Below the pieces are notes generated by a model. That model was not told the origin of the DNA, searched no databases, and saw only the letters and a list, made by a program, of their open reading frames with translations. The position numbers were made by a program, and so were the translations under genes. This document shows positions 8,274-26,358 of a stretch of DNA of 64,000 nt, piece by piece (positions within the stretch are counted from its first letter, which is position 1; each line of letters starts with the position of its first letter). This DNA is from Cylindrospermum sp. NIES-4074 (lineage in GTDB: Bacteria; Cyanobacteriota; Cyanobacteriia; Cyanobacteriales; Nostocaceae): the NCBI GenBank assembly GCA_003994795.1, contig AP018272.1, positions 124,001 to 188,000 on the forward strand, in the 5' to 3' direction.

Positions 8274-8339
8274 CCAACCAAGATCACCAAAAGTTGCCAA
8301 GACCCACTTTATGCTTTCATGCGCGGGTCGCTCTCCTAA

Positions 8340-8736
8340 TAGTCCCCATCGACTCAACCCTACTAAAAGTATGAAGCGTTGATGAACTGGATTGTTGCTT
8401 GTGCAGAGATGTCTTCAGCCTAAAAGCATAAAATTAGCTTATATATCTATTCGCACAATTTTTGATTACACAATTATTTCTGACACATACTAGGATCAAA
8501 TTTTTGTCAAAAAACAACTAAATTTCTTAAGATTTCGTCTTTTCAATAAGGTAAAGAAATACATCTGTCCGAAAAATAAATTGAAGTTTATTTTATTTGT
8601 GGTGATGTATAAGCTTTTACATAACTTTACTTTGTAAAGTCTTAGTAAAGATGTTTACGTCACCTTGGGTTAGTGATAAATAAATAGTTACCGATAAATA
8701 AAAAATAATTTTAGCAAAACCGATATTTTTTTCTAA
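8340..8736. promoter_or_regulatory. AT-rich leader before the biosynthetic cluster
   Basis: About 400 bp with no coding frame, very rich in A+T, directly upstream of the first NRPS gene. It probably contains the promoter. No palindromic operator or clear Shine-Dalgarno site could be singled out. Confidence 0.35.
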
Positions 8737-11700
8737 TTGTTCAAAAGTTTCCGTATGAATTTCACCTCTTCGCACGAAATTATTAAAAAGCAGGGGTTAG
8801 GCTCTGCCCCGTTGTCCTTTGCTCAAGAGCGACTTTGGTTTCTTGACCAGCTAAATTCTGGCAACCATGCCTACAATATACCTGTGGCTATTCATCTCAA
8901 GGGTTTGCTTGATGTAAAGGTGCTGGATCTGAGTTTGAGTGAAATTGTGCAGCGTCATCAGGCTTTACGAACCACTTTTACTGTTACGGATGGGCAACCA
9001 TTGCAGGTTAATACTTCATCCTCAAACTGGACGCTGCCAATTGTGGATCTAAGTAAGCTTTCTGAAACTGAACGTCAGCAAGAGAGCCAACGGCTGATAA
9101 CTGAGTCAGTACAGCAGCCGTTTGACTTGGCTAGTGGGCCGTTACTCCGTGCAACCTTGCAGCGATTGGGTGAAATTGAGCATATTTTGTTGCTAACGAT
9201 ACATGAAATTGTTGGTGACGATTGGTCAGTAAGGATACTTTTGCAGGAACTTGCAAGTTTATATGAAGCTTTTTTCCAGGGGAAACCATCACCATTAGTT
9301 GAACTACCCATTGAATATACTGACTTTGCTATTTGGCAGCGTGAGTGGTTACAAAGCGAAGAGTTGGAATCTCATTTCAGTTATTGGAAGCAGCAACTAG
9401 GAGGGGAGCTACCTGTACTGGAATTACCGACTGACCATCCGCGTCCACCAGTGCAAACCTATCGGGGTGCAAGACAATCCCTGAATTTATCGCAGGATTT
9501 AACTGATGCACTCAAGTCTTTGAGTCAGGAATCAGGAGTTACGTTGTTCACGACGTTGCTGACAGCTTTCAAAATCTTGCTCTATCGCTACACGAGTCTG
9601 GAAGATATTATTGTTGGGTCTATAGTTGCTAACCGCAATCAAGCTGAATTTGAGGGGTTGATTGGATTATTTGCTAATACTTTAGTGATGCGAACCGACC
9701 TTTCAGGAAATCCCAGCTTTCGGGAATTGTTAGATCGGGTGCAGGAAGTGGTTTTGTCAGCATACTCCCACCAAGATTTACCTTTTGAGAAGCTGGTAGA
9801 AGAACTGCAAACAGAACGGGATTTGAGTCGCCCACCTTTGTTTCAGGTGATGTTTGTTCTCGAAAATGAGCAGGAAACTAGGTTGGAATTTCCCGGTCTG
9901 AGTCTGAATGTAGTTGAGGTGGAGAACAAGAGTGCAAAGTTTGATTTAACTGTTGAAGTTCAAGAGACATCAGATGGTATTAATGGTTGGTTTGAGTACA
10001 ATACAGATTTGTTTGATGCTGACACCATAGGCAGGATGATTGGTTATTTCCGAATATTACTCGAAGATATAATTCAATTTCCGCATCAGCACATCTCAAA
10101 CTTGCCAAATTTTATGGAAGCAAGACTGTATGAACAGAATATAACATGGACAAAAAGAATTCCTGTTTTTTTGCAGAAAAGTTTAATTTCCCCTGCTGAT
10201 TGGTGTATTTCTCGGCAGATTGAATCAGGAAACTCTATCCCTGCATATTTGTGCAATTCTTGTGGAAAAGAAACGGTCTATCTTGAAGTTATCCCTAAAC
10301 AGTGTAAGCATTGCGGCTCGTGCGACCTTAGATTAGAAACTGATGTACTAGACATGTGGCTTTCCTGCGCTCTCTGGTGCTTTTGCGCGAACCAAAATTT
10401 TACTGAAGCTATCGATGTACTTCAACAAATTGCGAAAAATACAGTATGTGTTACTGGTTTTGATCTAATTTATCTTTGGATTACTACAACTGCACTCCTT
10501 AGTACACAGCTTGGGTTTTTACCATTCAAAGATGTAGTTATTCACCCAATTGTATGTGATGACCGTGGACTTAAGATGAGCAAATCTTTAGGAAACGTCA
10601 TTCTTCCACATGAAGTTATATCAACCTATGGAGCAGATTGTTTACGTTTAACTCTTATTGAAGATTTAAATATACAAGAAGAGAGAATATTTTTCTCAAA
10701 AACTAAATTAATTAAAAATAAAAACCTACTTAATCAATTACGCTCAGTATTACTTGAAATAGCTTCTTTTAAAAATTCTGATGCTGTACTCTACACATCT
10801 ATCTCGGAAAAATCCTTATTTGACGTTTTTGATAAATTCTTATCAAATTACTCTTTCCAAGAAGTTTATCAAGCATTTCAAGAATATCTAAATACTACGC
10901 TTATTGAACAGTTAGAATATTTACGTAAAACAAAAGATAGTATAAACGCATCTGAAACTTTAAAAAATACTCTTATTGTTCTTTACCCTATTATTCCTTT
11001 TTTGACAAAAGAGATATGGGAAAGAGAATTTCCACAATTTCCACTTTTAAATAATAGTATTGAAAGCAATTATGTAAAAAATAGTAGCCCTTTTTTCTCA
11101 CTACTACTTCCTGCTCCTAATCCGACTGGAGAGTTGCACATGGGACACATGATTAATCTTACAGTACAAGATATTCTAGCCCGTTGGCAACGTTTAAAGG
11201 GTCTTAACGTATTATGGACAGGAGCCGTGGATCACGGAGGCATTTCTACTCAAATGGTAGTTGAGAAGCGATTGAATGAACGAGGTGTTTCTCCGGAATC
11301 ATTAAGTAGAGAAGAGCGCATCAAAGAAATCGAGGTTTGGGAAAAAGAAATATCTCCGAAAATTATTCAACAAATGCTAGATATTGGCTCTTCAATTGAT
11401 GTAGCAAAACCACGTAGCATCGGAGATAGATTTCATAACTTCAAAATCTCTAGCCTCTTCAAAAAACTTTATGATAAAGGCTTAATCTACCGAGAGCAAA
11501 CCATCACCAATTGGTGTCCAAAATTGCGGACAACAATTGGTGACATGGAGTTAGACTTCAAAAAAGAAATGGAACCTATTTATATTTTGCGGTTTGCAAT
11601 TAAAGGAAATTCAGATCATTACTTAGAAATTACTACCGAAGCCCCTGAAACTTTTATAGGAGACGTAGCTATTGCTGTGAATCCTACAGATACACGTTAT

Positions 11701-12639
11701 TTAAATTATGTAGGTAATGAGGTTATTTCTCCGTTTTCAGGAGAACCTCTATTAGTTATTGCTGAATCCCATGTTGATCCACATTTCGGAAGCGGTGTGG
11801 TACGTGTGACACCAGCTTGTGTATCCAAAGATTTTCTTGTAGCTAAACGTCGTCACTTACCAATTCCCTTAGTGCTAGATTCACAAGGACGATTAGTAGC
11901 TGGAGCATATGTTGGGAAGACTCAAGAAGAAGCTCGCCATTTAGTGCTTCAAAATCTAAGCTATAAAGGCGACTTGTTACGTACCCAAAATCGAGAGTCG
12001 CTTATTGCCTATTGCCGTTACACCGGGGTACGGGTTATAGCTCGCCTATCTTATCAGTGGTTTATTAAGGTTGAGCCAATGCTTCAGCCTGCATTAGATT
12101 TTTTACAAGAAGGACATTTTCGTATTCATCCTAGAAAATACGAGGATGCTTATAAACAATGGTTGAAAAGTATAATTGATAACGTTTTACAATCACAGCT
12201 TAATTCCCCGGAGTTTCACTTAAATGAGCATACTCGTCCAAAATTAAATGTAACTTTTGTGGAACCTCGAAACCCAGTCGAGGAAGCTCTGGTAAAAATC
12301 TGGGCTGAAGTACTTGGGCTTGAGAAGGTTGGTATCCATGACAATTTTTTTGACTTGGGTGGTCATTCCCTTAAAGCAACTCAGGTCATTTCCCGAGTTT
12401 CCAATCAATTGGAAGTAGAGCTTCCCTTAAAACATTTTTTTCAAACGCCTACTGTAGCTAGCCTAGCTTCATTAGTTATACAGAACCAAGAGGAAAGAAC
12501 ACAACAATTCAAATCCACTACAAAAATTTCTCGGAGAAATCCAAAACAATTAATAGCAAAAATTTGCAAAATGTCGGATCATGAAGTTGACTCTCTGCTT
12601 AACAATTTGTTAAGTAAAGATTTTGATCACGAGAGTTAA
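8737..12639 (+). CDS. NRPS protein: C domain - circularly permuted ValRS-like domain - PCP
   Basis: 1300 residues from TTG 8737; ATG 8755 is equally possible. Residues ~24-460 form a condensation domain, but HHxxxDG reads HEIVGDD (156-162), with the second His replaced by Glu. Residues ~470-1165 are a class I aminoacyl-tRNA synthetase of ValRS type in permuted order. First come WCISRQ (489-494), two CxxC pairs (506-509, 523-526), VLDMWLSCALW (537-547), VTGFDLIYLW, KMSKS (613-617) and a short anticodon-type helical region ending IPFLTKEIWE (~762). A ~25-residue linker follows. Then come PAPNPTGELHMGH (HIGH at 801-804), VDHGGISTQMVVEKRL (~831), CP1 editing-like TTEAPETFIGD (966-976) and the CP1 exit YKQWLKSIID (~1148), which in ordinary ValRS leads directly into WCISRQ. 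Residues ~1175-1250 are a PCP (FFDLGGHSL, Ser1211). No adenylation domain is present. Inferred role: ATP-dependent amino-acid activation and loading of the adjacent PCP. The synthetase part looks more A+T-rich than its flanking domains. Confidence 0.9.
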   Translation: MFKSFRMNFTSSHEIIKKQGLGSAPLSFAQERLWFLDQLNSGNHAYNIPVAIHLKGLLDVKVLDLSLSEIVQRHQALRTTFTVTDGQPLQVNTSSSNWTLPIVDLSKLSETERQQESQRLITESVQQPFDLASGPLLRATLQRLGEIEHILLLTIHEIVGDDWSVRILLQELASLYEAFFQGKPSPLVELPIEYTDFAIWQREWLQSEELESHFSYWKQQLGGELPVLELPTDHPRPPVQTYRGARQSLNLSQDLTDALKSLSQESGVTLFTTLLTAFKILLYRYTSLEDIIVGSIVANRNQAEFEGLIGLFANTLVMRTDLSGNPSFRELLDRVQEVVLSAYSHQDLPFEKLVEELQTERDLSRPPLFQVMFVLENEQETRLEFPGLSLNVVEVENKSAKFDLTVEVQETSDGINGWFEYNTDLFDADTIGRMIGYFRILLEDIIQFPHQHISNLPNFMEARLYEQNITWTKRIPVFLQKSLISPADWCISRQIESGNSIPAYLCNSCGKETVYLEVIPKQCKHCGSCDLRLETDVLDMWLSCALWCFCANQNFTEAIDVLQQIAKNTVCVTGFDLIYLWITTTALLSTQLGFLPFKDVVIHPIVCDDRGLKMSKSLGNVILPHEVISTYGADCLRLTLIEDLNIQEERIFFSKTKLIKNKNLLNQLRSVLLEIASFKNSDAVLYTSISEKSLFDVFDKFLSNYSFQEVYQAFQEYLNTTLIEQLEYLRKTKDSINASETLKNTLIVLYPIIPFLTKEIWEREFPQFPLLNNSIESNYVKNSSPFFSLLLPAPNPTGELHMGHMINLTVQDILARWQRLKGLNVLWTGAVDHGGISTQMVVEKRLNERGVSPESLSREERIKEIEVWEKEISPKIIQQMLDIGSSIDVAKPRSIGDRFHNFKISSLFKKLYDKGLIYREQTITNWCPKLRTTIGDMELDFKKEMEPIYILRFAIKGNSDHYLEITTEAPETFIGDVAIAVNPTDTRYLNYVGNEVISPFSGEPLLVIAESHVDPHFGSGVVRVTPACVSKDFLVAKRRHLPIPLVLDSQGRLVAGAYVGKTQEEARHLVLQNLSYKGDLLRTQNRESLIAYCRYTGVRVIARLSYQWFIKVEPMLQPALDFLQEGHFRIHPRKYEDAYKQWLKSIIDNVLQSQLNSPEFHLNEHTRPKLNVTFVEPRNPVEEALVKIWAEVLGLEKVGIHDNFFDLGGHSLKATQVISRVSNQLEVELPLKHFFQTPTVASLASLVIQNQEERTQQFKSTTKISRRNPKQLIAKICKMSDHEVDSLLNNLLSKDFDHES

Positions 12640-12680
12640 TGATTACCTTAAAGTTAATGTTACTACAGATAGTATCTATT

Positions 12681-13388
12681 TTATTCTTCAATTGCTTTGT
12701 CCAAAGTTCGTAGGTGCTTACGGAATGTATAGGAAGAATCAACAGTAGATTTATTCAAATATTCGTTGAATTGGAATTGCTCGAACAAGGTTTTACCTCC
12801 TCGTACAGCTTCAGCTTGATACCGTTCCCTTTGCCAAATTGCCTGAGATGTAATGAGAATTTCTTCTAAATTTTTACTAGAAGTAAAAACAACCCCATCT
12901 TTGTCAGCAAATACTACGTCTTCTTGGCTAACCTCAAAATTACCAAAGTTAGCTGACTTTAGTGCTTTTGAATTTCGAGGTTCAAATCTTTGGGGACCTA
13001 CTGGGCAAGTGCCGTAACTAAAAATAGGTAAGCCAATCTGAATCAGTTCTGCCGTATCACGATGACATCCCCACAGCACAATACCAGTTAAAGCGTGGCA
13101 TTGTGCTTCTAAAACAATCAAATCACCAATACAAGCTTCTTGAGTTCTACCATTATTATCAATAACAAGAACGTCACCTGGTATTGAAGAAGCTATTGCC
13201 TCTAAAAGAATATCCACGCTTCCGTAATGGCGTACTGGTAAAACCCGACCAAAAATAAATTCTCCTGATAGGACAGGGCGAATACCAAAAGGTGCAACAT
13301 GAAAAGATATTTTTAATTGCAAACAAGCATCTGCTATAAGCGGAGTTGAAAGTCTAGATAAAGTACCGTCTGGTTCATATTTTTTCAT
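12681..13388 (-). CDS. RraA / HMG-aldolase-like protein
   Basis: 235 residues. It has the RraA fold signature: an early [12 protein letters not shown] segment, [16 protein letters not shown], then [20 protein letters not shown] ending in a HRD motif equivalent to the catalytic Arg-Asp of 4-hydroxy-4-methyl-2-oxoglutarate/oxaloacetate aldolases. Family members are divalent-metal aldolases or decarboxylases, or RNase E inhibitors; in a biosynthetic cluster a C-C lyase on a keto acid is plausible. The usual GG of the active-site loop (LGGELLAT in many relatives) is replaced by LEAQCH, so activity is not assured. It converges on the first NRPS gene and is divergent from the small peptide gene, with ~220 bp of shared upstream sequence. 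Confidence 0.75.
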
Positions 13389-13561
13389 TTAATAACCATC
13401 CTTTTTAAAATTAATATCTTACTAAGAAAATTATATTTTTGTATATTGTTTTATAAACTTATTTTTTAGATGAATTTATCATAGCATTAATGAAATGATT
13501 AAATTCCAATGTAAAATTTTGTTACAAACAGTAAAATTCAATCTAAAATATGTATAATAAT

Positions 13562-13585
13562 AAATATCCAATCAATTGGATATTT
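13562..13585. promoter_or_regulatory. Perfect palindrome, candidate operator
   Basis: Arms AAATATCCAAT and ATTGGATATTT (11 bp each, 2 bp spacer) end 24 bp upstream of the start codon of the 39-residue peptide. They lie in the divergent region shared with the RraA-like gene. Its symmetry and position suit a dimeric repressor or activator site. No regulator gene is recognised within the cluster. Confidence 0.5.
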
Positions 13586-13609
13586 ATGTTAAAATCAAGG
13601 AAATAAGTC

Positions 13610-13729
13610 ATGAAATCTGAATCGAATAAAAACCAAGTAAACTCTACTAAACAAGACAAAATTTCTGAGCAATCTATTAAATTGCGCCGTCAAAAAAACG
13701 GTCAATACACTGGTTCTTTGTTGGGCTAG
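13610..13729 (+). CDS. 39-residue peptide, possible scaffold or precursor peptide
   Basis: ATG at 13610 is preceded at 6-7 nt by AAGGAAA, one of the better ribosome sites in the cluster. The peptide begins MKSESNKNQVNSTKQDKISE and ends LRRQKNGQYTGSLLG: a polar, Ser/Lys/Asn/Gln-rich leader-like part and a short Gly/Leu-rich C-terminus, with no cysteine. It lies between the RraA-like gene and the M29-like pair. A genuine short gene is supported by the ribosome site and the upstream palindrome. A role as a RiPP-type precursor or as scaffold for aminoacyl addition is only an inference from context. Confidence 0.55.
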   Translation: MKSESNKNQVNSTKQDKISEQSIKLRRQKNGQYTGSLLG

Positions 13730-13877
13730 TTCGTAACTACATACAAGTTATCTATAGTAATCCTAAATGAATTAGAAGAATTTAGAAAGTCTAAAAGAAA
13801 GTATGTTTTTTCAGATTTTTTGATTCTCAAAAATGTGTTTAGGCTGCTATGGTAACCTGTTTAACAGGTAGTACATT

Positions 13878-14135: not shown

Positions 14136-14190
14136 AACTTGCAATACACTGTATATTTTAAATTTAGATTAAAGGATAACGTTAAATAAA

Positions 14191-15303
14191 ATGAAAAAAA
14201 TAACCATTTATCCTAGTTATTTTAAGCAATTTGGAGATGCTGAAGGAAGCACATTTTACTTAGTCACTAATTCCTCTTTACTTGATGTATTTCTAATAGA
14301 GGATGACAAAAAATATAAAAATTTTAAAGTGATTGTATATGATTCAGATGTTAGTTTTATAGAGTTGTTAAGCAAAGAAATTCAAGAGCCAGCTCACATT
14401 CTTGTCATTGCACCGGAATGCTTGTTCGAGTCTGTGCATCCTAACGACTTAGGTCCACGTCGCAAACTGTTAATTTTTGCCTGTAATTCAGCTCCAACTT
14501 CGCTTGAAGCTATTGAACATTTCTTAAGATGCGGTGAAAAGACAGATCCTGAAGAACAAGAAAAAGTGGCAGATCGTTTTTTTACACAATGTGAATCGAC
14601 TCATTTATTAAAGTTGATTGATGAAGAGTACCAAACTGTAGCTGAATTCCTTCATCTGAATGAGTTCTACGGATGGCATGAACAATTAGGAGTGCTGGAA
14701 TGGGGAGGGCAACAGATATTCCCTTCAGGAGAAATAGCGTGTTTTCTTGTACCCCTCAAAGGAATAAACAAATTGCCAGATATACAGTTTTACTTAAACG
14801 GGGAAATTGCCTTACGAGGTTACCCAGTCGTTCATTCAGGACCCCCATCTTTTCTACGTGAAGACCAAGAGCGGATTTATCAAAAGCTTGCTACTTTTAA
14901 AGACTATCCTGTAATTATCAAAATTGAAGATGGTATAGTAGTCGATATAAAAGCAACCCATCAATCAGCTAAGTCAGCTTTAAAAATGCTAGAAGCAATG
15001 TTCATGGTTGATTCAAGGTTTAGACAAATTTTTGAAATTGGTTTTGCTATCAATAGACATGTTGAGATTTTTCCTCGAAATTCAGCTATGAATGAGGTTT
15101 ATGGTGGTGAAGAAGGGTGTGTTCATTTCGGTTTTGGAATGTTGCCTTACACTCAGTATCATCTGGATCTTATTTGTCCTAATATCAAAGTGCTTAACAA
15201 AGATAATGAAGTAATATTTGGTAGTAATAAAAAGAGGGATGAAAGTAAAGAAACAAAAAAAATTATTCGCCATAGAGTATCACATTGCCCGTGTCTTGGA
15301 TAA
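14191..15303 (+). CDS. M29 (aminopeptidase T)-like metalloenzyme, copy 1
   Basis: 370 residues. The C-terminal half matches the layout of M29 metallopeptidases and related non-peptidase enzymes: FPSGEI near 188, RHVEIFPRNSAMNEVYG near 295, VHFGFG near 315 and YHLDLICP near 328. These supply the expected Glu, Glu, His, His and Asp metal ligands. The N-terminal half contains a cysteine-containing Rossmann-like part (LLIFACNSAPTSLEAIEHFL). The C-terminal extension NKKRDESKETKKIIRHR is not shared with copy 2. The paralogue at 15377 is similar along its full length, indicating tandem duplication. Possible roles are trimming of a peptide intermediate or oxidative/hydrolytic tailoring. Confidence 0.6.
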   Translation: MKKITIYPSYFKQFGDAEGSTFYLVTNSSLLDVFLIEDDKKYKNFKVIVYDSDVSFIELLSKEIQEPAHILVIAPECLFESVHPNDLGPRRKLLIFACNSAPTSLEAIEHFLRCGEKTDPEEQEKVADRFFTQCESTHLLKLIDEEYQTVAEFLHLNEFYGWHEQLGVLEWGGQQIFPSGEIACFLVPLKGINKLPDIQFYLNGEIALRGYPVVHSGPPSFLREDQERIYQKLATFKDYPVIIKIEDGIVVDIKATHQSAKSALKMLEAMFMVDSRFRQIFEIGFAINRHVEIFPRNSAMNEVYGGEEGCVHFGFGMLPYTQYHLDLICPNIKVLNKDNEVIFGSNKKRDESKETKKIIRHRVSHCPCLG

Positions 15304-15376
15304 GGATACCTCAAGAGAATAAAAGACTTTCTGCTGTTGATGATAAGGATTGTCGTATCAAACACAAGGGATATTT

Positions 15377-16414
15377 ATGGCAAAAATTACTGTATATCCT
15401 GGGCGCTTACGCCAATTTGGCAAAAGAGAAGGTTGTACATTTTGTGTTGTAACGAACTCTAGGTTATTAGACAATATTATAATTGCAGAGGAGAGTGGAT
15501 ATCAAAGCTTCAAGATCATCCCATACGATGCAGGAGACGATTTCATACAAATATTAATTAATCAAATTCCTGAAACTGCTCATATCCTTGTTATTGCACC
15601 AGATTGTTATTTCCGTTCACCTGAATTACAACACCTTGGAACACACAGGAAACTTTGTATCATGGCTTGTAATTCCACCTCTACATCAGTGGAGACAATT
15701 GAGCATTTTCTTAGATGTGGAGAAAATACAGACCCAGTGGAGCAAGAAGAAATGGCTGAGCAGTTCTTTCTGAATTGTGAAGCTGCTAATCGACTAAAGT
15801 TTGTTGATGAGGAATATGAAGCGGTTGCTGAATTTCTGCATTTAAATAACGGGTTACAGTGGCATGAACAAGTAGGAACGCTTCAATGGGGACAGCAGCA
15901 ATTATTTCCAGCAGGAGAAATCAGTGTTCTGCCCGTAGAAGTTTTCGCTTCAGATTTAAATGTAAAGCTTGATATAACCGGAAAATTAGCTCTCCGAGGA
16001 ACTCCCGTGCTTCATTCGGGAACGCCTTCATTTCTTTTAGAAGATCAGAAACGAATTTTTCAGGCTCTTTGTACTATGAAAGAACACGCTATTATTGCCA
16101 CACTCCACGAAGGCGTTATAACTGCAATAGAAGCATCTACCCCTGGCGTCCAACCCGCAGCTAATATGTTGAATGCTATGTGCGAAGTAGATTCCAGATA
16201 TAGGATTGTTGTAGAAATTGGATTTGCTGTTAACCGCCATTTAGAACTTTTTCCAGGAAACTCGGCAATGAATGAAGTATATGCCAATGCTAATGGAACA
16301 GTTCATTTTGGACTTGGGTTAATTCCAAATACTCAGTACCACCTTGATATCATCTGTCCATTCATAAAAGTACTTGGCAAAAATGATGAATTGATATTTG
16401 GTGGAATATCTTAA
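15377..16414 (+). CDS. M29 (aminopeptidase T)-like metalloenzyme, copy 2
   Basis: 345 residues from ATG 15377, preceded by AAGGG; an upstream in-frame GTG-type start was rejected because its leader has no counterpart in copy 1. It keeps the same motifs: FPAGEI, RHLELFPGNSAMNEVY, VHFGLG and YHLDIICP, so all putative metal ligands are conserved. Separated from copy 1 by ~70 bp and co-directional, so probably co-transcribed. Whether the two subunits form a heteromer or act on different substrates cannot be told from sequence. Confidence 0.6.
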   Translation: MAKITVYPGRLRQFGKREGCTFCVVTNSRLLDNIIIAEESGYQSFKIIPYDAGDDFIQILINQIPETAHILVIAPDCYFRSPELQHLGTHRKLCIMACNSTSTSVETIEHFLRCGENTDPVEQEEMAEQFFLNCEAANRLKFVDEEYEAVAEFLHLNNGLQWHEQVGTLQWGQQQLFPAGEISVLPVEVFASDLNVKLDITGKLALRGTPVLHSGTPSFLLEDQKRIFQALCTMKEHAIIATLHEGVITAIEASTPGVQPAANMLNAMCEVDSRYRIVVEIGFAVNRHLELFPGNSAMNEVYANANGTVHFGLGLIPNTQYHLDIICPFIKVLGKNDELIFGGIS

Positions 16415-16525: not shown

Positions 16526-17695
16526 ATGTATCAAAATGTGAAAAGCTTTTGCAAAAAGGAAATGTTTCAATTGGGAAATGTTCACTATCTCAATTGTGCT
16601 TATATGTCCCCACTATCAAAAAAAGTTGAAGAAGCGGGAATCATAGGTATGCAAAGAAAAAGAATTCCAACTACTTTAAAATCAGAAGACTTTTTTCATG
16701 ATACTGAAAAAGTACGCAATCTTTTTGCAAAAATTATAGGTGCTCCAGATCCTTACCAAATAGCAATCATACCCTCTGTATCATACGGAATGGCAGTTAT
16801 TGCAAAAAATACCGACTTTAAATACGGTCAGAACATTGTTATTGCGTCTGGGCAGATGCCATCCAATGTCCATACTTGGCAAAAAGTATGCCAACAATAT
16901 GGTTTAGAGTTAAGGGTGGTAAACCCCGAAAAAAGTATAAATAATTATGTGAGTAATTGGAGTGAAAAAATTTTAGAATCTATAGACGTAAATACTGCTC
17001 TTGTAACTTTGGGACATGTGCATTGGACGGATGGAACGCTTTTTGACCTTAAAAATATTAGCCAACGCGCGCATGAGTGTGGATCTGCTTTTATTGTAGA
17101 TGGCACTCAGTCTATTGGAGCGCTTCCTTTGAATATCTCAGATATTCAACCAGATGCTCTTATCTGTGCAGCATATAAATGGCTTATGGGTCCTTATTCC
17201 ATTGGTCTTGCTTATTTTGGCTCTCGCTATCTTAACGGAATACCTCTGGAAGAAAACTGGATTAACCGTCTTGGAAGTGAAAATTTTCCCGATTTAGTTA
17301 ACTATAAGAGTGAGTATCGACCTAAAGCAATTCGTTATGATGTTGGCGAAGTAAGCAATTTTATTTTGCTTCCTATGCTTGCTACTGCACTCGAACAGCT
17401 TGTTGAATGGGGCATCGAAAATATTCAAAATTATTGCCGTGACTTAAGCTATGAATTTATTAATGATATTGCTGAATTGGGATTTTTTGTAGCAGATGAA
17501 AAGGAAAGATGCTCTCATTTAATCGGGGTTCGTATGCCAAACAATATCGAACTAGAAAAGCTGCAAAAACTTTTAAATGAAAATAATATTGCTATTTCAG
17601 TACGTGGTAATTCAATGCGGGTTTCTCCAAATATATATAACGATCTAAATGACATGAATGCCTTAATTAAAGTTTTACGTAACTATCCTCAATAA
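16526..17695 (+). CDS. PLP-dependent class V aminotransferase / desulfurase-like
   Basis: 389 residues with the class V fold: an N-terminal YLNCAYMSPLSKKV, VTLGHVHWTDGTLFDL, VDGTQSIGALPLNI (the PLP-ring Asp) and the Schiff-base Lys in CAAYKWLMGPYSIG. The C-terminal domain ends MRVSPNIYNDLNDM. Relatives include cysteine desulfurases, kynureninases, isopenicillin-N epimerases and pathway-specific lyases. There is no clear catalytic-Cys loop, which argues against a housekeeping desulfurase. It lies between the M29-like pair and the NRPS modules, so it probably acts on an amino-acid building block or a carrier-bound intermediate. Confidence 0.8.
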   Translation: MYQNVKSFCKKEMFQLGNVHYLNCAYMSPLSKKVEEAGIIGMQRKRIPTTLKSEDFFHDTEKVRNLFAKIIGAPDPYQIAIIPSVSYGMAVIAKNTDFKYGQNIVIASGQMPSNVHTWQKVCQQYGLELRVVNPEKSINNYVSNWSEKILESIDVNTALVTLGHVHWTDGTLFDLKNISQRAHECGSAFIVDGTQSIGALPLNISDIQPDALICAAYKWLMGPYSIGLAYFGSRYLNGIPLEENWINRLGSENFPDLVNYKSEYRPKAIRYDVGEVSNFILLPMLATALEQLVEWGIENIQNYCRDLSYEFINDIAELGFFVADEKERCSHLIGVRMPNNIELEKLQKLLNENNIAISVRGNSMRVSPNIYNDLNDMNALIKVLRNYPQ

Positions 17696-17899: not shown

Positions 17900-20800
17900 T
17901 TGAAATCCATCAACAATCTTTCACCAAAAGAAAAACGTGCGCTTCTTGCACAGCTTCTTCAGCAAAAAGCTAGCGAATCTTACTCTGCTCCTCTCTCCTT
18001 TGCCCAGCAGCGGTTATGGTTTTTCGACCAATTAGAACCTGAGAGTACTGCTTATAATATGCCAGCCGTTTATCGACTAACGGGTATATTAAATATTACT
18101 GCATTAGAGCAAAGTTTAAATGAAATTTGGCAACGTCACTCCATTTTAAGAACTATCTTCCCATCTGTAGATGGACAACCAAGCCAAGTTGTACTAGAAG
18201 ACGTAAATTTCACATTATCATTAATTGACCTGAAGGAAATTCCTGACCTGCATAAGGAAGCGTCTGTTGAAAGCTTTGCTATTGAAGAAGCCCAACAGAC
18301 CTTTGACCTGGAACAAGGTCCGTTGTTTCGTGCAAGACTCTTGTGTTTAAAAGCAACCGAGCATGTGCTGCTGTTAACAATGCACCACATTGTTTATGAT
18401 GGCTGGTCATACAGCATATTCTTTGAGGAAATGGCAACGCTTTACTCAAACTTCTGTGTTGGTAAATCTCCACCATCGAAATCGCTTCCCATCCAGTATA
18501 CAGACTATGCTATTTGGCAACGTCAATGGCTACAAGGTGAAGTTCTAAAATCTCAGCTAGATTACTGGAAACAGCAGTTGGGTGGTAGCCTTCCCGTCCT
18601 CCAATTACCCACTGATTATCCACGGGAACTAGTCCAAACTTACCAAGGCGCATATCAATCTCTGGAACTGTCACTAGAGCTAACAGAAGCACTCAAAGCC
18701 CTAAGCCAGCAGGAGGGTGTTACTCTTTTTATGACCCTGCTAGCAGCATTCCAGACATTACTTTACCGATATTCAGGGCAAGAAGACATTATTGTTGGCA
18801 CTCCCATCGCTGGTCGCAACCAAGTAGAAACCGAATGGCTAATTGGTTTATTTGTTAATACCCTAGCAATACGCACTAACCTTTCAAATAACCCAACTTT
18901 CCGACAATTACTCAGCCAAGTTCGACAAGTAACCCTAGAAGCATACTCCCATCAAGACCTGCCCTTTGAGAAGCTAGTAGAAGAACTACAGCCAGAACGA
19001 GACCTCAGCCGTTCACCCTTATTTCAGGTAATGTTTGCCTTCCATAATACCCCAAGCCAACCTTGGGAACTTCCAGGACTGACCATTACTCCCCTAGAAA
19101 TTCATAATGGCACAGCAAAATTTGACCTTACCCTCGACCTGAAAGAAACTGCAGAAGGCATCAAAGGCGGTATTGAATATAACACAGACCTGTTTGAGTC
19201 TGCCACCATCACGCGAATGGTAGGGCATTTCCAAACCTTACTTGAAGGTATTGTCGCTAACCCACAACAGCATATTTTCGATTTACTTCTATTAACCCCA
19301 GGCGAACGCCATCAACTGTTAGTAAAGTGGAATAATACCCAAACTGATTACCCAAAAGATACTTGCATTCATCAATTATTTGCAGCCCAGGTAGAAAAAA
19401 CCCCAGATGCAGTAGCAGCCATCTTTGAAAGCCAGCAACTAACTTACCAGCAACTCAATCACCGTGCCAATCAACTAGCCCATTATCTCATATCATTGGG
19501 AGTCAAACCAGAAACTCCAGTGGGGATTTGTGTAGAGCGCTCCTTAAATCTAATCGTCGCACTTCTTGCCATTCTCAAAGCAGGTGCAGCCTACGTACCT
19601 CTAGACCCAGCCTATCCCCAAGAACGCCTCGCTTTCATGTTGGCAGATGCTACAGTTCCAATTCTATTAACTCAAAAGCAACTCATTGACAAACTCCCTT
19701 CACACCAAACCAAAGTAGTTTGCTTAGACACAGACTGGAAAACCATCACCCAAGAAAACTCAGACAACCCAATCACTGAAGTAAAACCTCATAATTTAGC
19801 CTACATCCTCTATACCTCCGGCTCCACAGGTCAACCCAAAGGAGTCACCATCGAACATCAAAATACAGTTAATTTTATACAATGGGCGCAAACAACCTTC
19901 ACCTCTTTCCAACTATCTGGGGTACTGGCCTCTACTTCCATCTGCTTCGACCTGAGCGTCTTCGAGTTATTCGTTCCCCTAAGTTGTGGCGGTAAAGTCA
20001 TCCTCGCCGAAACCGCCTTACACCTACCCACCCTCAAAGCCGCCCAAGATGTCACTTTAATTAATACAGTCCCCAGTGCGATCGCCGAATTACTCCGAGC
20101 CAACGCGATACCACAAAATGTGCGGACTGTCAATCTAGCTGGTGAACCTTTGTCGCTACAACTGGTAAACCAACTCTATCAACACCCATCTATTCAGGAA
20201 GTTTTCAATCTTTACGGACCGACTGAAGCTACTACCTACTCTACATTTAGCTTATGTTCCAGGCACAGCGACAAAGCAAGTAACTCCTCCATTGGTCGCC
20301 CCATTGCCAACACACAAATTTATATTCTCGACTCCCATCTTCACCCAGTCCCGATAGGAGTTCCTGGCGAACTGTACATTGGTGGCGCGGGGTTGGCACG
20401 GGGGTATTTCAACCGCCCAGAGTTAACACAAGAGAAATTCATTGCCAATCCCTTTAGCGATGAACCAGGTGAACGCCTTTACAAAACAGGCGACTTAGCT
20501 CGTTACCGTAGCGATGGTAACATTGAATTTCTTGGTCGCCTAGACAACCAAGTAAAAATTCGTGGTTTCCGCATTGAATTGGGAGAAATTGAAGAGGCGA
20601 TCGCACTCCACCCCAGTATACAGCAAACTGTTGTCACAGCTAGAGTTGATGACGCTGGTGACAAACGCCTAGTAGCCTATATCGTTCCTCACTCAGAACA
20701 GACACCCACCATAGACCAACTGCACCACTTCCTCAAACAGAAGTTACCAGAATATATGGTGCCTAGTGCCTTTGTTGTCTTAGACACCCTACCCCTAACA

Positions 20801-21163
20801 CCCAATGGGAAAATTGACCGGAACGCCTTACCTGACCCCGACTCTGCAAGACCCAACCTAAGAAAAACCTTTGTTGCACCCCGCACCGACATTGAACAGC
20901 AGATAGCCGACATCTGGACTTCTCTGCTCAAATTGGAAAAAGTCGGTATCCACGACAACTTCTTTACCTTAGGAGGACATTCCCTACTCGCCACTCAAGT
21001 GATTGCTCGTTTACGAGCCTCCTTCGGAATAGACTTTCCCGTGCGTACTGTATTTGAAGCACCGACTGTGGCACTTTTGGCAGAGCGCATTGAAACATTT
21101 CAGTGGGTAACAGAACAGTCGCAGATGGACATAATGAGCAACTATGAGGAAGGCGAACTATGA
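17900..21163 (+). CDS. NRPS module C-A-PCP, Ala-like pocket
   Basis: 1087 residues from TTG 17900 (MKSINNLSPKEKRALLAQLL is a typical NRPS N-terminus). The condensation domain spans ~30-470 with intact HHIVYDG at 162-168. The adenylation domain spans ~495-985 with LYTSGSTGQPKG near 637 and YKTGDLARY. Reading the ten pocket positions gives D-L-F-N-N-A-L-T-Y-K (FDLSVFE, INTVPS, NLAGE, NLYGPTEATTY), a code reported for alanine. The PCP has FFTLGGHSLLATQ, with Ser near 1027. No epimerase or thioesterase domain is present. The stop overlaps the next start (ATGA at 21160-21163), so the two proteins are translationally coupled and probably adjacent in the assembly line. Confidence 0.9.
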   Translation: MKSINNLSPKEKRALLAQLLQQKASESYSAPLSFAQQRLWFFDQLEPESTAYNMPAVYRLTGILNITALEQSLNEIWQRHSILRTIFPSVDGQPSQVVLEDVNFTLSLIDLKEIPDLHKEASVESFAIEEAQQTFDLEQGPLFRARLLCLKATEHVLLLTMHHIVYDGWSYSIFFEEMATLYSNFCVGKSPPSKSLPIQYTDYAIWQRQWLQGEVLKSQLDYWKQQLGGSLPVLQLPTDYPRELVQTYQGAYQSLELSLELTEALKALSQQEGVTLFMTLLAAFQTLLYRYSGQEDIIVGTPIAGRNQVETEWLIGLFVNTLAIRTNLSNNPTFRQLLSQVRQVTLEAYSHQDLPFEKLVEELQPERDLSRSPLFQVMFAFHNTPSQPWELPGLTITPLEIHNGTAKFDLTLDLKETAEGIKGGIEYNTDLFESATITRMVGHFQTLLEGIVANPQQHIFDLLLLTPGERHQLLVKWNNTQTDYPKDTCIHQLFAAQVEKTPDAVAAIFESQQLTYQQLNHRANQLAHYLISLGVKPETPVGICVERSLNLIVALLAILKAGAAYVPLDPAYPQERLAFMLADATVPILLTQKQLIDKLPSHQTKVVCLDTDWKTITQENSDNPITEVKPHNLAYILYTSGSTGQPKGVTIEHQNTVNFIQWAQTTFTSFQLSGVLASTSICFDLSVFELFVPLSCGGKVILAETALHLPTLKAAQDVTLINTVPSAIAELLRANAIPQNVRTVNLAGEPLSLQLVNQLYQHPSIQEVFNLYGPTEATTYSTFSLCSRHSDKASNSSIGRPIANTQIYILDSHLHPVPIGVPGELYIGGAGLARGYFNRPELTQEKFIANPFSDEPGERLYKTGDLARYRSDGNIEFLGRLDNQVKIRGFRIELGEIEEAIALHPSIQQTVVTARVDDAGDKRLVAYIVPHSEQTPTIDQLHHFLKQKLPEYMVPSAFVVLDTLPLTPNGKIDRNALPDPDSARPNLRKTFVAPRTDIEQQIADIWTSLLKLEKVGIHDNFFTLGGHSLLATQVIARLRASFGIDFPVRTVFEAPTVALLAERIETFQWVTEQSQMDIMSNYEEGEL

Positions 21164-24100
21164 AAACAATTGATGAGTTTTTATCGGAGCTACGCAGTAA
21201 AGATGTCAACTTGTGGGTACAAGGAGATCGCCTACGTTACAAAGCTCCCCCTCAAACATTAACACCTAACCTGCTACAAGAACTCAAAGAGCGCAAACCA
21301 GAAATATTGGCATTTTTAAACCAAGTCAATGCTGCTGTCAATTCTAAGCTTACCTCGATATTACCAGCACCACAGGAGACGAATTTACCTCTTTCCTTTG
21401 CCCAAACTAGACTTTGGTTCTTCAATCAATTGGAACCTGACAGTAGTGCTTATAATATGCCGACCGCTTATCGACTCACTGGTGTCATTCATGTTACGGC
21501 TTTAGAGCAGAGTCTAAATGAAATTTGGCAACGTCACTCCATCCTCAGAACTGTCTTCCCATCTGTGGATGGAAAACCCAGCCAAGTCATCTTAAAAGAT
21601 GTAAATTTTACATTATCATTAATCGACCTAGAAAACATACCAGAAACAGAAAGACTTGCACAAGCGCAATACCTTGCTACTCAAGAAACCCAGCAACCCT
21701 TTGACTTGGCACATGGGCCGTTGTTTCGCGCCAAGCTCTTGTGCCTAACAACAACAGAGCATGTATTACTATTAACAATGCACCATATTGTTTACGATGG
21801 CTGGTCTGACAGCATATTCTTTCAAGAATTGGCAACACTGTACTCAGCCTTCTGTGCTGGTCAACCTTCACCATTAAAGAAACTCCCTATCCAGTATGCT
21901 GATTTTGCTGTTTGGCAGCGTCAATACTTACAGGGTGAAGTCCTAGAATCTCAGCTATCTTATTGGAAACAGCAGCTCGGTAGTAGCTTTCCCCTGCTCC
22001 AGTTACCAACTGACTATCCACGTCCAGCAGTCCAAACTTATCGGGGTGCGTCTCAATCTCTTGAACTATCCAACAATTTAGTCATCGCACTAAAATCACT
22101 CTCCCAAAGCTCAGGAGCCACATTATTCATGACCATGCTAGCGGCATTCAAAATTTTGCTCTACCGCTATTCAGGTCAAGAAAATATTATCGTTGGTACT
22201 CCCATCGCTGGTCGCCAGCATATAGAAACAGAAGGGTTGATTGGCTTATTCCTCAACTCTCTAGCACTATGTACTGACTTATCTGCTATCCCTACTTTTC
22301 GGCAACTGTTAAGTCGAGTGCGGGAAGTTACTTTGGGAGCCTATGCTCATCAAGACCTACCTTTTGAAAAACTGGTAGAGGAAATACAACCGGAGCGTTC
22401 TTTAAGCCATGCACCTATATTTCAAGTATGGTTTAATATGCTCAATTTTACAGATAGTAAACTCGAATTGTCTGGTTTGCAGGTAGATACCATTTCGATT
22501 ACAGGAAATACTTCAAAATTTGATTTAACGCTCTATGTTAGAGAACATGAGAAAGGAATTTATCTGCAATTAGTTTACAGTACAGATATATTTACACCAG
22601 AACGGATAGCAGAAATACTCACTCAATATGAGCATTTGTTGGTACAGATTAGTGAAAGCCCAGACGAAAAAATTACAAATTTTTTCTTGGTAACTCCCAA
22701 AGCTAAATTACTTTTACCTGCGCCCAACGAAATACTGATGCCTCAATGGTCGGGTGCTGTCCATACACACTTTACTCAACAAGCTAGACAAGTTCCGCAA
22801 GATTTAGCAGTTGTGGATGCACGAGTTGCATGGAATTATGCAGAACTTGAAGAACGTACAAATCAACTGGCAAATTACTTACTAGAAAATGGTATAGGCA
22901 AGGGGGAAGTCGTTGCTATCTATGGTCAACGTAGTGCATGGCTGGTACTAGCTATTATTGGCGTTCTTAAAGCAGGTGCTACCTTTTTGATTTTAGATCC
23001 TGCTTATCCAACTTCCCGTTTGCTTGATTGTTTAAATCTTGCATCACCTCGTGGTTGGCTGGAAATTGCAGATGCTGGAGAAATACCAAATGCGTTGAAA
23101 GAATTTGTTAGTAATTTATCATGTTGTTTTTACCTTCAGCTTTCCCAGTCCTTACTACTAACGAGTTATTCGACTAAAAACCCAGAAGTAGAAATTGACC
23201 CAGACGATTTAGCCTATCTTGCCTTTACCTCCGGTTCTACAGGCAAACCCCAAGGAATTATCGGTACTCACAGACCTTTGTCCCATTTTATCGAATGGCA
23301 TTGTCAGACTTTTGGTCTAAATCAATCAGATCGGTTTAGCTTACTTTCGGGACTTTCCCATGACCCCTTACTGCGGGATATCTTCACCCCGCTGTGGTTG
23401 GGAGCGACCTTATGTATTCCTCAGCAACAGCATATTGAAACACCAGGACGATTAGCTGTTTGGATGCAGCAACAAAAAGTTAGCATTGCTCATCTGACAC
23501 CAGCAATGGGACAACTCCTGATTGAAAGCACTTCAACTATTACTCAGCTTCCGCAACTTCGTTATGTTTTTTTTGGTGGTGATTCCTTAACTAGATATGA
23601 TGTCACCAAAATTAAATCTATCGCGTCAACAGCTACCTGTGTGAATTTTTATGGCGCTACTGAAACTCCCCAGGCAATGGGTTATTTTATCATTCCTAAT
23701 CCAGAAGACAAGTTAAAAGGTCAGTCAACAAGTATTAAAGATACCATTCCTTTAGGCAAAGGAATTGAAGATGTTCAATTGCTAATTATTAACCCTACAC
23801 AACAGTTAGCTGGGATAGGCGAAATAGGCGAAATATATGTTCGCACTCCTTATTTGTCTAAAGGGTACTTAGCTGATGATCTACTGACTCAAGAGCGATT
23901 TATTATCAATCCATTTACCAATATAAATGGAGATCGCCTTTACAAAACTGGCGATTTAGCCCGTTACCTCCCGGATGGTAACATTGAATTCTTGGGTCGC
24001 CGAGATGATCAAATTAAAATTCGTGGTTACCGCATCCAGTTAGCAGAGATTGAATCAAAACTGAGCCAACACTATGCCGTTCAAGAAAGTTTAGTTACAG

Positions 24101-26358
24101 CAACATTTGACATAACAGGCGACAAGCGTCTAGTAGCCTATATCATTCCGAGTAAAAATCAGTCACCAACAACTAACGAACTACAAAGCTTCCTAAAACA
24201 GAAGTTACCAGAGTATATGTTGCCGAGAGCATTTGTACGGCTAGATGCTCTACCTCTGACTCCCAATGGAAAAATAGATTATAAAGCCTTACCAATACCC
24301 ACCCATAGTAGGCAAGAGTCGGCAGCAACCTTTGTGGCTCCTAGAAATAAGTTGGAATTTCATCTGACAAAGATTTGGGAGAATGTTTTAGGTATTCAAC
24401 CTATTAGTATCAAGGATAACTTTTTTGACCTGGGAGGTCATTCACTTTTAGCAGTACGCCTGTTCGCAGAAATTGAAAAGGCTTTCAATAAACATTTTCC
24501 CTTATCTACTCTGTTCCAAAAACCGACAATTGAGGAATTAGCAAGCATTTTACACCAAGAGCAACGGTTAGTGCCTGAATCCTTAGTCTTGGCAATTCAA
24601 CCAAATGGTTCCAAACTACCTCTTTACCTGATCAATGCCCTTGGTACAGGAATGTTTGCCTATAGTAATTTAGCAAGGTATCTGGGTTCAGAGCAACCTG
24701 TTTATGGAATACAAGCACTAGGATTGGATGGGCAACAACCCCCCCACACAACAATAGAGGACATGGCAAAAGAATACATCAAAGCTATACGTATTTTACA
24801 GCCACAAGATCCATACTTGTTAGGAGGTTTGTCCTCTGGAGGAGTAGTAGCATTTGAAATGGCACGCCAACTCCAGGATCAAGGACATAGGGTAGCTTTA
24901 GTAGCGTTGATTGATTCTTACTCTCCCAAATCGCTACAATCGAAAAATAATAGCATATCTAAAAACTCTAGTTTTTTACAGAAATATAAACATAATATTC
25001 TGCGTAGAGAAACATCTTTACTGTTGAGTGATATAATAATATTTTTAAGTACGTCTCAATTTTCTGCTCAAGAGAAGTTGTCTTACGTTATAGAGACAAT
25101 GAAGAAGGTCTGGGAAAAAATTGAGAATAAATTGGATACAATTTTATACAAGCTTTATCATCCTAATAGAGATTTCCTGCCTTATACTGCTCGTCAAGCC
25201 TTGGTTAAAGAAGCTGCTCGTCAAGCAATTATTAACTATAATCCTCAAATATATCAAAACAAAGTAACTCTTTTTCGAGCTAGTGAAACACCAAACGAAT
25301 ATCATTTAGGATGGCAGGATTTAGCTACTGGTGGTTTAGAAATTCATGAAGTTCCTGGTGATCACAGAACTATTATTGCAGAACCTAATATCCGAATTTT
25401 AGCTGAAAACTTGAATAGTTGTATAGAACAGACACAGGCAGAAACTTTAGAAACCAATAGTTCAAAACCTCAGAAATTAACAATAGAGGTTGAGAATTTA
25501 ACTAACCATAATACTCAAGCAAACTCGTCAGTTATTTGTCCCTCACTAATAGCCATTCAAACAAGTGGTTTGAAACCTCCTCTATTTTGCATTCATGCTC
25601 TTGGCACAAGCGTATTATACTACCGAGATTTAGCGCGTCATTTAGGTAAAGAGCAACCATTTTATGCCTTACAACCACAGGGGCTAGATGGAAAATATGC
25701 TCCTTTCACTCGAATTGAAGACATGGCATCTCATTATATTAAAGAAATACAAACTATTCAGTCAGAAGGCCCTTATTTTTTAGGAGGCTCTTCCTTTGGA
25801 GGTTGGGTAGCTTGGGAAATAGCCCAGCAACTCCATAGACAAGGACACGAGATAGCTTTATTAGCTTTATTTGATACTAAAGGTTTGGGTTATCTCAAAC
25901 GAATGTCTGGTAAAAAGCGATTATGGAATCACTTAAATAAATTGCAAGAATACGGAGCTAATTATATTTTGCAAAAAGCGATAGGAAAAGTCCAGTGGCT
26001 CAAAAATAGACTGCAAGCTACCAGCCATAAATATTTTCTGAAGTTTTCTTTGGAGAATTTGGAATTTTTATCTCCAAACGACTTCAAAGTAATTGTAGAA
26101 GAAGCTAACAGACAAGCGGCAAGAAACTATTCTTTAAAAGTTTACGAAGGTAAAGTTACACTTTTTCGAGCTATTGATCATCCTCAACCTCAAGGATGGT
26201 ACATTGACCCAAAAAAGGGCTGGGGGGAGCTAGCTCGTGGAGGTTTAGAGATTCACGATGTCCCTGGTAATCACGATTCCATGTTTAGACAACCCCACGT
26301 TCAGATTTTGGCTGAAAAATTGCAGACTTGCTTAGAAAAGGCTCAAACTAATGATTAA
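21160..26358 (+). CDS. NRPS terminal module: TubC docking - C - A - PCP - TE - TE
   Basis: 1732 residues. Residues 1-55 are a TubC-type docking domain (IDEFLSELRSKDVNLWVQGDRLRYKAP). The C domain runs from ~77 to 510 with HHIVYDG near 208. The A domain has LAFTSGSTGKPQG near 687 and an unusual A4 region (LSHDPLLRDIFTPLW); my reading of the pocket is D-P-R-H-F-G-F-Q-A, for which I offer no substrate. The PCP has FFDLGGHSL near 1091. Two type I thioesterase domains follow, with nucleophile motifs GGLSSGG (~1224) and GGSSFGG (~1543) and terminal histidines in PGDH and PGNH. Tandem TEs are known in some lipopeptide synthetases, where they release or cyclise product and proofread. Its place at the end of the NRPS row makes this the release module. 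Confidence 0.9.
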   Translation: MKTIDEFLSELRSKDVNLWVQGDRLRYKAPPQTLTPNLLQELKERKPEILAFLNQVNAAVNSKLTSILPAPQETNLPLSFAQTRLWFFNQLEPDSSAYNMPTAYRLTGVIHVTALEQSLNEIWQRHSILRTVFPSVDGKPSQVILKDVNFTLSLIDLENIPETERLAQAQYLATQETQQPFDLAHGPLFRAKLLCLTTTEHVLLLTMHHIVYDGWSDSIFFQELATLYSAFCAGQPSPLKKLPIQYADFAVWQRQYLQGEVLESQLSYWKQQLGSSFPLLQLPTDYPRPAVQTYRGASQSLELSNNLVIALKSLSQSSGATLFMTMLAAFKILLYRYSGQENIIVGTPIAGRQHIETEGLIGLFLNSLALCTDLSAIPTFRQLLSRVREVTLGAYAHQDLPFEKLVEEIQPERSLSHAPIFQVWFNMLNFTDSKLELSGLQVDTISITGNTSKFDLTLYVREHEKGIYLQLVYSTDIFTPERIAEILTQYEHLLVQISESPDEKITNFFLVTPKAKLLLPAPNEILMPQWSGAVHTHFTQQARQVPQDLAVVDARVAWNYAELEERTNQLANYLLENGIGKGEVVAIYGQRSAWLVLAIIGVLKAGATFLILDPAYPTSRLLDCLNLASPRGWLEIADAGEIPNALKEFVSNLSCCFYLQLSQSLLLTSYSTKNPEVEIDPDDLAYLAFTSGSTGKPQGIIGTHRPLSHFIEWHCQTFGLNQSDRFSLLSGLSHDPLLRDIFTPLWLGATLCIPQQQHIETPGRLAVWMQQQKVSIAHLTPAMGQLLIESTSTITQLPQLRYVFFGGDSLTRYDVTKIKSIASTATCVNFYGATETPQAMGYFIIPNPEDKLKGQSTSIKDTIPLGKGIEDVQLLIINPTQQLAGIGEIGEIYVRTPYLSKGYLADDLLTQERFIINPFTNINGDRLYKTGDLARYLPDGNIEFLGRRDDQIKIRGYRIQLAEIESKLSQHYAVQESLVTATFDITGDKRLVAYIIPSKNQSPTTNELQSFLKQKLPEYMLPRAFVRLDALPLTPNGKIDYKALPIPTHSRQESAATFVAPRNKLEFHLTKIWENVLGIQPISIKDNFFDLGGHSLLAVRLFAEIEKAFNKHFPLSTLFQKPTIEELASILHQEQRLVPESLVLAIQPNGSKLPLYLINALGTGMFAYSNLARYLGSEQPVYGIQALGLDGQQPPHTTIEDMAKEYIKAIRILQPQDPYLLGGLSSGGVVAFEMARQLQDQGHRVALVALIDSYSPKSLQSKNNSISKNSSFLQKYKHNILRRETSLLLSDIIIFLSTSQFSAQEKLSYVIETMKKVWEKIENKLDTILYKLYHPNRDFLPYTARQALVKEAARQAIINYNPQIYQNKVTLFRASETPNEYHLGWQDLATGGLEIHEVPGDHRTIIAEPNIRILAENLNSCIEQTQAETLETNSSKPQKLTIEVENLTNHNTQANSSVICPSLIAIQTSGLKPPLFCIHALGTSVLYYRDLARHLGKEQPFYALQPQGLDGKYAPFTRIEDMASHYIKEIQTIQSEGPYFLGGSSFGGWVAWEIAQQLHRQGHEIALLALFDTKGLGYLKRMSGKKRLWNHLNKLQEYGANYILQKAIGKVQWLKNRLQATSHKYFLKFSLENLEFLSPNDFKVIVEEANRQAARNYSLKVYEGKVTLFRAIDHPQPQGWYIDPKKGWGELARGGLEIHDVPGNHDSMFRQPHVQILAEKLQTCLEKAQTND

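Follow-up and report, generated by a model that had tools for sequence, protein, structure and literature searches.

A circularly permuted valyl-tRNA synthetase-like core in the adenylation-domain position of a cyanobacterial nonribosomal peptide synthetase, with a proposed role in carrier protein loading

Introduction

What is the core of a valyl-tRNA synthetase (ValRS), with its two catalytic halves in swapped order, doing between the condensation (C) domain and the peptidyl carrier protein (PCP) of a nonribosomal peptide synthetase (NRPS)? This question is raised by a gene, here called NRPS1, in a 64,000-nucleotide stretch of DNA (the window; assembly GCA_003994795.1, contig AP018272.1, positions 124,001 to 188,000) from the cyanobacterium Cylindrospermum sp. 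NIES-4074; the contig, C4 in our numbering, is a plasmid-like one of 220 kb in a genome of 7.7 Mb and five contigs. An earlier note, made from the letters of the window, had described the protein as a C domain, a circularly permuted ValRS-like synthetase replacing the adenylation (A) domain, and a PCP. We find that this architecture is real, the reading frame being uninterrupted from the C domain through the ValRS-like core to the PCP (Table 1). With regard to function, we propose, with a probability of roughly 0.7, that NRPS1 is the starter of a three-protein synthetase in which the ValRS-like domain would form an aminoacyl-AMP without tRNA and then load the PCP; as judged from sequence, PCP loading is the most economical reading.

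Results and Discussion

The halves of ValRS in reversed order

The usual order within one chain, in which the half with the HIGH motif precedes the half with KMSKS, is reversed in NRPS1. When the genome was searched with the valS family profile, profile positions 397-698 matched (5.1e-50) at C4:134189-135025, corresponding to NRPS1 residues 485-763, and positions 31-407 matched (7.8e-97) downstream of them, at C4:135083-136201 (residues 783-1155); the separate profile search of the two halves that the earlier note had suggested thus upheld its claim of a swapped core. In a search of PDB sequences, the best match for each half was the Thermus thermophilus ValRS 1GAX, to which the first half of NRPS1 aligned at 397-692 (1.4e-34) and the second at 30-404 (1e-61), and Pfam tRNA-synt_1 also matched in two stretches (5.2e-76, best at residues 781-1151). 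The new termini of the core lie where it had been claimed that they do, at the point of ValRS between WLxNI(R/K)D and DWCISRQ, and the old termini, for which a linker of ~25 residues had been given, are joined by one of about 20-25. Nothing of the valS profile past position 698 of 863 is found in NRPS1, i.e., ~165 C-terminal positions are absent, and Pfam Anticodon_1 matches residues 699-767 with profile positions 16-89 of 148 only; the loss of the C-terminal tRNA-binding arm had been read correctly. NRPS1 as a whole scores 494.2 bits, in two stretches, against a curated valS cut-off of 612.1, a score that the permuted order itself depresses; the one match in the genome above the cut-off is the ordinary host ValRS.

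A ValRS-like core in the place of an A domain

The exchange can be seen by comparison with NRPS2, which is encoded further downstream. The C domains of NRPS1 and NRPS2 are 54% identical in a 471-column alignment, homology ends at about residues 456-460 (with a weak BLAST tail to 493) and returns at residue 1164, just upstream of the PCP; the A domain of NRPS2 occupies the gap that the ValRS-like core fills in NRPS1. A Pfam scan gave no AMP-binding (PF00501) match between C and PCP in NRPS1, whereas NRPS2 and NRPS3 both have one. Set against NRPS2, the swap of an A domain for the ValRS-like core is clean, which agrees with the replacement that had been proposed. The HHxxxDG motif, known for its role in condensation domains, reads HEIVGDD in NRPS1 and HHIVYDG in NRPS2 and NRPS3, a change that the earlier note had missed; because of it, the C domain of NRPS1 is probably unable to condense. 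The best plasmid matches of this C domain are from Nostoc and Leptolyngbya, and photosystem genes are present at a locus taken from another genome of the family, both in keeping with a cyanobacterial origin. GC content is 0.43 in the C domain, 0.27-0.41 in the synthetase part, depending on the segment, and 0.41 in the PCP, and the synthetase part is mostly richer in AT than the C domain. A possible remnant of WCISRQ at the C-terminal side (IIDNVLQSQL), which might have been a trace of tandem duplication, was considered and dropped, as the evidence was too weak.

NRPS1 most likely feeds NRPS2. EGEL-type tails and TubC_N domains are docking elements, and the order NRPS1, NRPS2, NRPS3 is suggested because NRPS1 has no EGEL-type tail and NRPS2, which ends in EEGEL, has no TubC_N match, whereas the relative of NRPS2 on contig C2 has one. 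That relative belongs to a second line, which begins with a 3927-aa polyketide synthase (PKS)-NRPS protein (scanned in two pieces) with AprA-type, ketosynthase-acyltransferase, class III aminotransferase, luciferase-like monooxygenase and C-A-PCP domains, and continues with a 1152-aa TubC_N-C-A-PCP protein and then a 1736-aa protein. NRPS2 shares 80.9% identity with the 1152-aa protein over 1067 columns, and NRPS3 shares 99.1% with the 1736-aa protein; at the DNA level, 17990-26366 of the window and C2 329221-337627 are 92.5% identical over 8.4 kb. This region on two contigs, each time behind another starter, points to a recombination or duplication event that is recent. Since the C2 relatives of NRPS2 and NRPS3 stand behind a PKS-NRPS starter, the permuted protein has probably, by analogy, taken the place of a starter; between NRPS1 and NRPS2 in the window no PKS-NRPS starter was seen, and the genes there encode an RraA-like protein, a homologous pair of proteins and a class V aminotransferase.

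Residues kept and changed against ValRS

The core was de-permuted and aligned with a panel of 11 ValRS (13 loci were taken, and L072 and L079 were removed by a motif filter), to which each half is 28-36% identical. NRPS1 keeps 65 of the 94 positions invariant in the panel in the catalytic region, 18 of 30 in CP1 and 9 of 18 in the anticodon-type region. Kept are HMGH, KMSKS, N44, T46, D81, W456, W495, D490 and both CxxC pairs, a type of zinc-binding site. Changed are four editing-site positions of CP1 that are invariant in all 11 ValRS (R216A, K270R, H275C and D276V), WWGH (407-410), which reads ESGN, as well as RNF (576-578) and WY (648-649), and the RNFxNKxWNAxRF and CDWYIE signatures are in large part eroded. 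Thioester transfer by such a core is plausible, because ValRS is reported to form Val-S-CoA, with Asp490 listed as its thiol-binding residue (passages of Jakubowski 2017, PMC5370406); Asp490 is kept in NRPS1 and in the panel alike and is thus not discriminating.

Structure model and the site of the tRNA CCA end

An AlphaFold2 model of the core (pLDDT, the predicted local distance difference test, 72.9; pTM, the predicted template modelling score, 0.69) had 1gax as its best Foldseek match (3.1e-20). The comparison of a predicted structure with ValRS that had been proposed could be made in part: the model matches ValRS, while the reported alignments are mostly of the second half, the VIA-align rows covering mainly model residues 313-686. 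The fragment sets for folding were tuned until the halves aligned correctly, and the input alignment was thus chosen with the permutation in mind; alignments A2-A6, which put fragments in wrong places, were not folded, and a first model (pLDDT 41.5) was discarded.

The C-terminus of native ValRS is found at the distant end, where tRNA is bound. For the second half of the core, the structural alignments stop at 1GAX 397 and at residue 454 of yeast isoleucyl-tRNA synthetase (IleRS). Passages of PMC7955072 report that reveromycin A is bound by Trp449, Arg454, Trp456, Arg460 and Arg462 of yeast IleRS and occupies mainly the site of the tRNA CCA end. Because the alignment ends adjoin residues of this site, the new termini of the core, which bear the C domain and the PCP, appear to be located where the CCA end of tRNA enters. 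A PCP tethered there would reach the active site directly.

Proposed mechanism and its alternatives

From the order of the segments, the motifs, the residue changes and the gene context, we infer an activity, a substrate, loading of the PCP, an order of the line and a reason for the permutation. HIGH and KMSKS would meet in one site despite their swapped order, and the ValRS-derived domain would use ATP to activate an amino acid, aliphatic and resembling valine, as aminoacyl-AMP; the neighbouring PCP, not tRNA, would then receive the aminoacyl group on its phosphopantetheine thiol. The permutation would place the new termini at the mouth for the CCA end, where the PCP on its short linker would substitute for tRNA, and the C domain would be a vestige of the C-A-PCP module that received the synthetase. 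NRPS2 and NRPS3 would extend the chain, NRPS3 would release a short peptide, and the ABC protein would export it.

Several observations weigh against this proposal. The loss of 29 of 94 catalytic invariants compares with at most 10 of 104 in each of 11 leave-one-out controls (the worst of which, L077 and L078, kept 94), and P42A and I491L affect what we take to be pocket positions of ValRS; with these changed, the activated amino acid need not be valine. The CP1 site still has T214, T219, F264, T272 and D279. Retention in the anticodon-type region (Fisher p 0.17) and in CP1 (p 0.38) is not significantly worse than in the catalytic region, and therefore the view that tRNA binding was lost and catalysis kept rests on the identity of the changed residues. 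Model pLDDT is ~46-63 around the CxxC pairs. In trees, where a split at 100/100 separates ValRS from IleRS, each NRPS1 half falls with ValRS but at no stable position, and the domain, a singleton, has a very long branch (3.55-4.3, compared with 3.4-3.6 for the split itself), with unusual composition flagged in two of three trees. Finally, the RraA-like gene, which runs in the other direction, stands between NRPS1 and the remaining genes of the cluster, so that their shared expression is an assumption.

Two alternatives are unlikely to about the same degree. The aminoacyl adenylate might be captured by the free amine or hydroxyl of a co-substrate or tailoring partner, as in MshC or predicted in cupin-MetRS, with a separate A domain loading the PCP. 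Class I synthetase paralogues acting as ligases have been described or predicted (passages of PMC2922099; MshC in passages of PMC9437257), and the altered pocket positions would suit such a role; however, the PCP stands in the same chain directly behind the domain, and neither a free-standing A domain nor a cupin was found among the eight scanned proteins of 8737-28010. The domain might equally be an inactive or decaying one, a functionless recombination product like the probably dead C domain before it, as might be expected from the changed C-domain motif, the lost catalytic invariants, the failure to find a second copy, the transposase genes on both sides and the sequence common to two contigs. 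Yet at 28-36% identity the frame is open and HIGH, KMSKS, the CxxC pairs, D81, W456, W495 and the PCP serine are intact, whereas an equally diverged neutral sequence would not be expected to retain such motifs.

A tRNA-dependent route, in which the domain would charge a tRNA that feeds the peptide line, is highly improbable, even though CP1, several of its site residues and a short helical region are still present, as the C-terminal ~165 profile positions and the anticodon-region signatures are gone and the break, at which the PCP is fused, adjoins residues of the CCA-end site. An assembly or chimaera artefact, named beforehand in the earlier note as grounds for refutation, has the least chance of all and is very unlikely on the sequence, for while the protein is known from one genome only, the frame is open over all joints in a 220 kb contig of a five-contig genome, a repeat scan of 8300-13000 gave no more than a 24-nt direct pair (79%) and a 20-nt inverted one, the genome search gave no other source for either half, and the halves are similarly far from the host ValRS (32.1% and 31.2% identity).

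Distribution

Relatives of the permuted joint were sought with NRPS1 residues 560-900, which span KMSKS to HIGH, in sets of 3 genus, 217 family, 388 class and 388 order genomes (the sets overlap and each includes the genome of origin); outside the class, the search covered collections of plasmids, viral contigs and genome contigs. In these genome sets, no other single match held both KMSKS and HIGH. The other matches at E <= 1e-20 or 1e-22 in the family, class and order sets (7, 18 and 3, respectively) start at query positions 176-224 and none reaches KMSKS, although some run slightly into the joint region. With the HIGH half as query at E <= 1e-40, 207 of 208 family genomes gave a match, the genome of origin two and every other one a single match; no second ValRS-like HIGH half was thus found in the 207 other family genomes at this threshold, which a more diverged copy could escape. 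Of 72,556 plasmid records, 254 matched by tblastn (the top-ranked at 35.2% identity), and there was no permuted copy among the 30 matches listed, in which all named features were valine-tRNA ligase or valyl-tRNA synthase. No viral contig with the NRPS1 domain was found, and the scan of genome contigs gave one relative, an ordinary IleRS. The search for the same C-synthetase-PCP architecture that had been suggested was thus carried as far as these sets, with no joined KMSKS-HIGH copy in the genome sets, the plasmids listed or the viral contigs.

Relation to known systems

The NRPS1 core belongs, by sequence, neither to ValRS proper, nor to the class II carrier-protein ligases, nor to A domains. 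With ValRS (class Ia, T. thermophilus 1GAX) it shares both catalytic halves, CP1, HIGH, KMSKS and the CxxC pairs, from which it differs in being permuted, in its missing C-terminal part, in its altered editing site and in its fusion between C and PCP; as to tRNA-binding parts, the C-terminal part is absent and a short helical region is left. According to passages of PMC5370406 and PMC9437257, class II, SerRS-like amino acid:[carrier protein] ligases attach amino acids to carrier proteins without charging tRNA, and by analogy NRPS1 would work in their manner, as a synthetase homologue loading a phosphopantetheine carrier. However, these ligases are separate proteins with a carrier encoded nearby, whereas the NRPS1 core, with class I motifs, class I sequence and fold matches and no class II SerRS-like fold, lies within an NRPS. 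Class I examples in nonribosomal synthesis are the cyclodipeptide synthases (CDPS) and cupin-MetRS (passages of PMC2922099); together with MshC they share the recruitment of a class I synthetase fold to peptide-metabolite synthesis, but, from the passages cited, CDPS use aminoacyl-tRNA and cupin-MetRS and MshC act as ligases, unlike the PCP loading proposed for NRPS1. No ValRS, C-aaRS-PCP protein or permuted synthetase is described in these passages. Cupin-MetRS ligases are MetRS paralogues with a cupin, while NRPS1 is closest to ValRS and no cupin was found in the eight scanned window proteins. The A domain of a C-A-PCP module has the same slot and presumably the same reaction, with an unrelated fold; of the hallmarks of such a module, NRPS1 has C and PCP in one chain and lacks HHxxxDG.

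We know of no counterpart to a C/permuted ValRS/PCP protein, and a search of the open-access literature (most subscription papers and bioRxiv lay outside its scope) gave no title, abstract opening or passage on an NRPS that contains a synthetase of ValRS-like or permuted kind. The odds somewhat favour NRPS1 as the first natural circularly permuted aminoacyl-tRNA synthetase to serve as an in-line NRPS loading domain, with its chain ends moved to the CCA entry such that the PCP, with its phosphopantetheine arm, stands in for the acceptor end of tRNA. If so, the coded and nonribosomal peptide systems would be joined in one chain, with a synthetase doing the job of an A domain, and circular permutation would have re-sited a macromolecular partner in nature. 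A natural enzyme of this kind makes the idea of synthetases as amino acid:pantetheine ligases, as put forward in passages of Jakubowski (PMC5370406), testable, and suggests an engineering route by which synthetase specificity could be used for NRPS loading; genome mining that relies on AMP-binding domains might label such a module broken.

Gene neighbourhood and other observations

Table 1. NRPS1, its parts and neighbouring genes in the window (positions are those of the window; residues are those of NRPS1).
Feature	Position	Strand	Remarks
NRPS1: C - circularly permuted ValRS-like - PCP	8737..12639	+	1300 codons from TTG 8737; first ATG 8755 (residue 7), where translation may start
Condensation domain, residues 23-456	8803..10104	+	HEIVGDD in place of HHxxxDG; Pfam 1.5e-121
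First ValRS segment, residues 488-767, second catalytic half	10198..11037	+	DWCISRQ 488-494, VLDMW 537-541, VTGFDLIYLW 572-581, two CxxC, KMSKS 613-617, shortened helical anticodon-type region 699-767
Linker, old C-terminus to old N-terminus, residues ~768-790	11038..11106	+	about 20-25 residues
Second ValRS segment, residues ~791-1148	11107..12180	+	HMGH 801-804, VDHGG, CP1 editing domain, terminal KQWLKSIID 1140-1148
Carrier protein (PCP), residues 1184-1246	12286..12474	+	LGGHS serine, FDLGGHSL 1205-1212; Pfam PP-binding
RraA-like/aldolase-family protein	12681..13388	-	Pfam
Uncharacterised protein 1 of homologous pair	14191..15303	+	class V aminotransferase beside it, as in two relatives
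Uncharacterised protein 2 of pair	15350..16414	+	
Class V aminotransferase/cysteine-desulfurase-like enzyme	16526..17695	+	Pfam
NRPS2: C-A-PCP	17900..21163	+	HHxxxDG intact, without TubC_N match, EEGEL tail at C-terminus
NRPS3: TubC_N-C-A-PCP-thioesterase	21160..26358	+	close relative on C2 (see text)
Cyclic-peptide-type ABC exporter	26373..28010	+	Pfam

The homologous pair has no Pfam match above cut-off and no PHROGs match, and its first protein also has no PDB match. At E <= 1e-10 it matches 7 of 208 family genomes, its own included; the protein is paired in its own genome, G114, G094 and G199, and single in G068, G069 and G033. The pair stands with a thioesterase, A-PCP, a PhyH oxygenase and a class V aminotransferase in G114, where by analogy the ordinary A-PCP could be the loader in the role of NRPS1, and with a class V aminotransferase and a methyltransferase in G094. 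A general link to NRPSs is opposed by the absence of any NRPS among the scanned open reading frames of G199 (four), G069 (one) and G033 (two), with a ketoacyl synthase in G199. Relatives are also found on a Paraburkholderia replicon (42.3%) and on eight Streptomyces plasmids (28-29%), of which one adjoins a standalone A-domain protein, a radical SAM protein and NRPS genes.

Transposase-type genes flank the cluster on both sides, with a TnsA-like endonuclease gene downstream (window 3879-5157, 28751-29716 and 29824-30462). Compact ValRS-like open reading frames of 503-537 aa were seen on viral contigs (L095/L115, which are the same contig, L116, L117, L119-L123 and L129); in these, HIGH and WxISRQ are 172-213 aa apart, as opposed to ~360, which leaves them without a CP1 editing domain. 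A class I synthetase gene of 603-649 aa with a LeuRS-like look and hardly any CP1 is present at C2 305489-307438 and at C3 ~215.2-216.9 kb (L147, L149, L006 and L007), within a 6 kb segment that is 99.85% identical between the two contigs, and on C2 an NRPS with a reductase is located ~7 kb upstream of the gene. Close to the C-terminus of the host ValRS (L001 1471-4479) there is a hydrophobic insertion, which looks like the cyanobacterial CAAD membrane domain.

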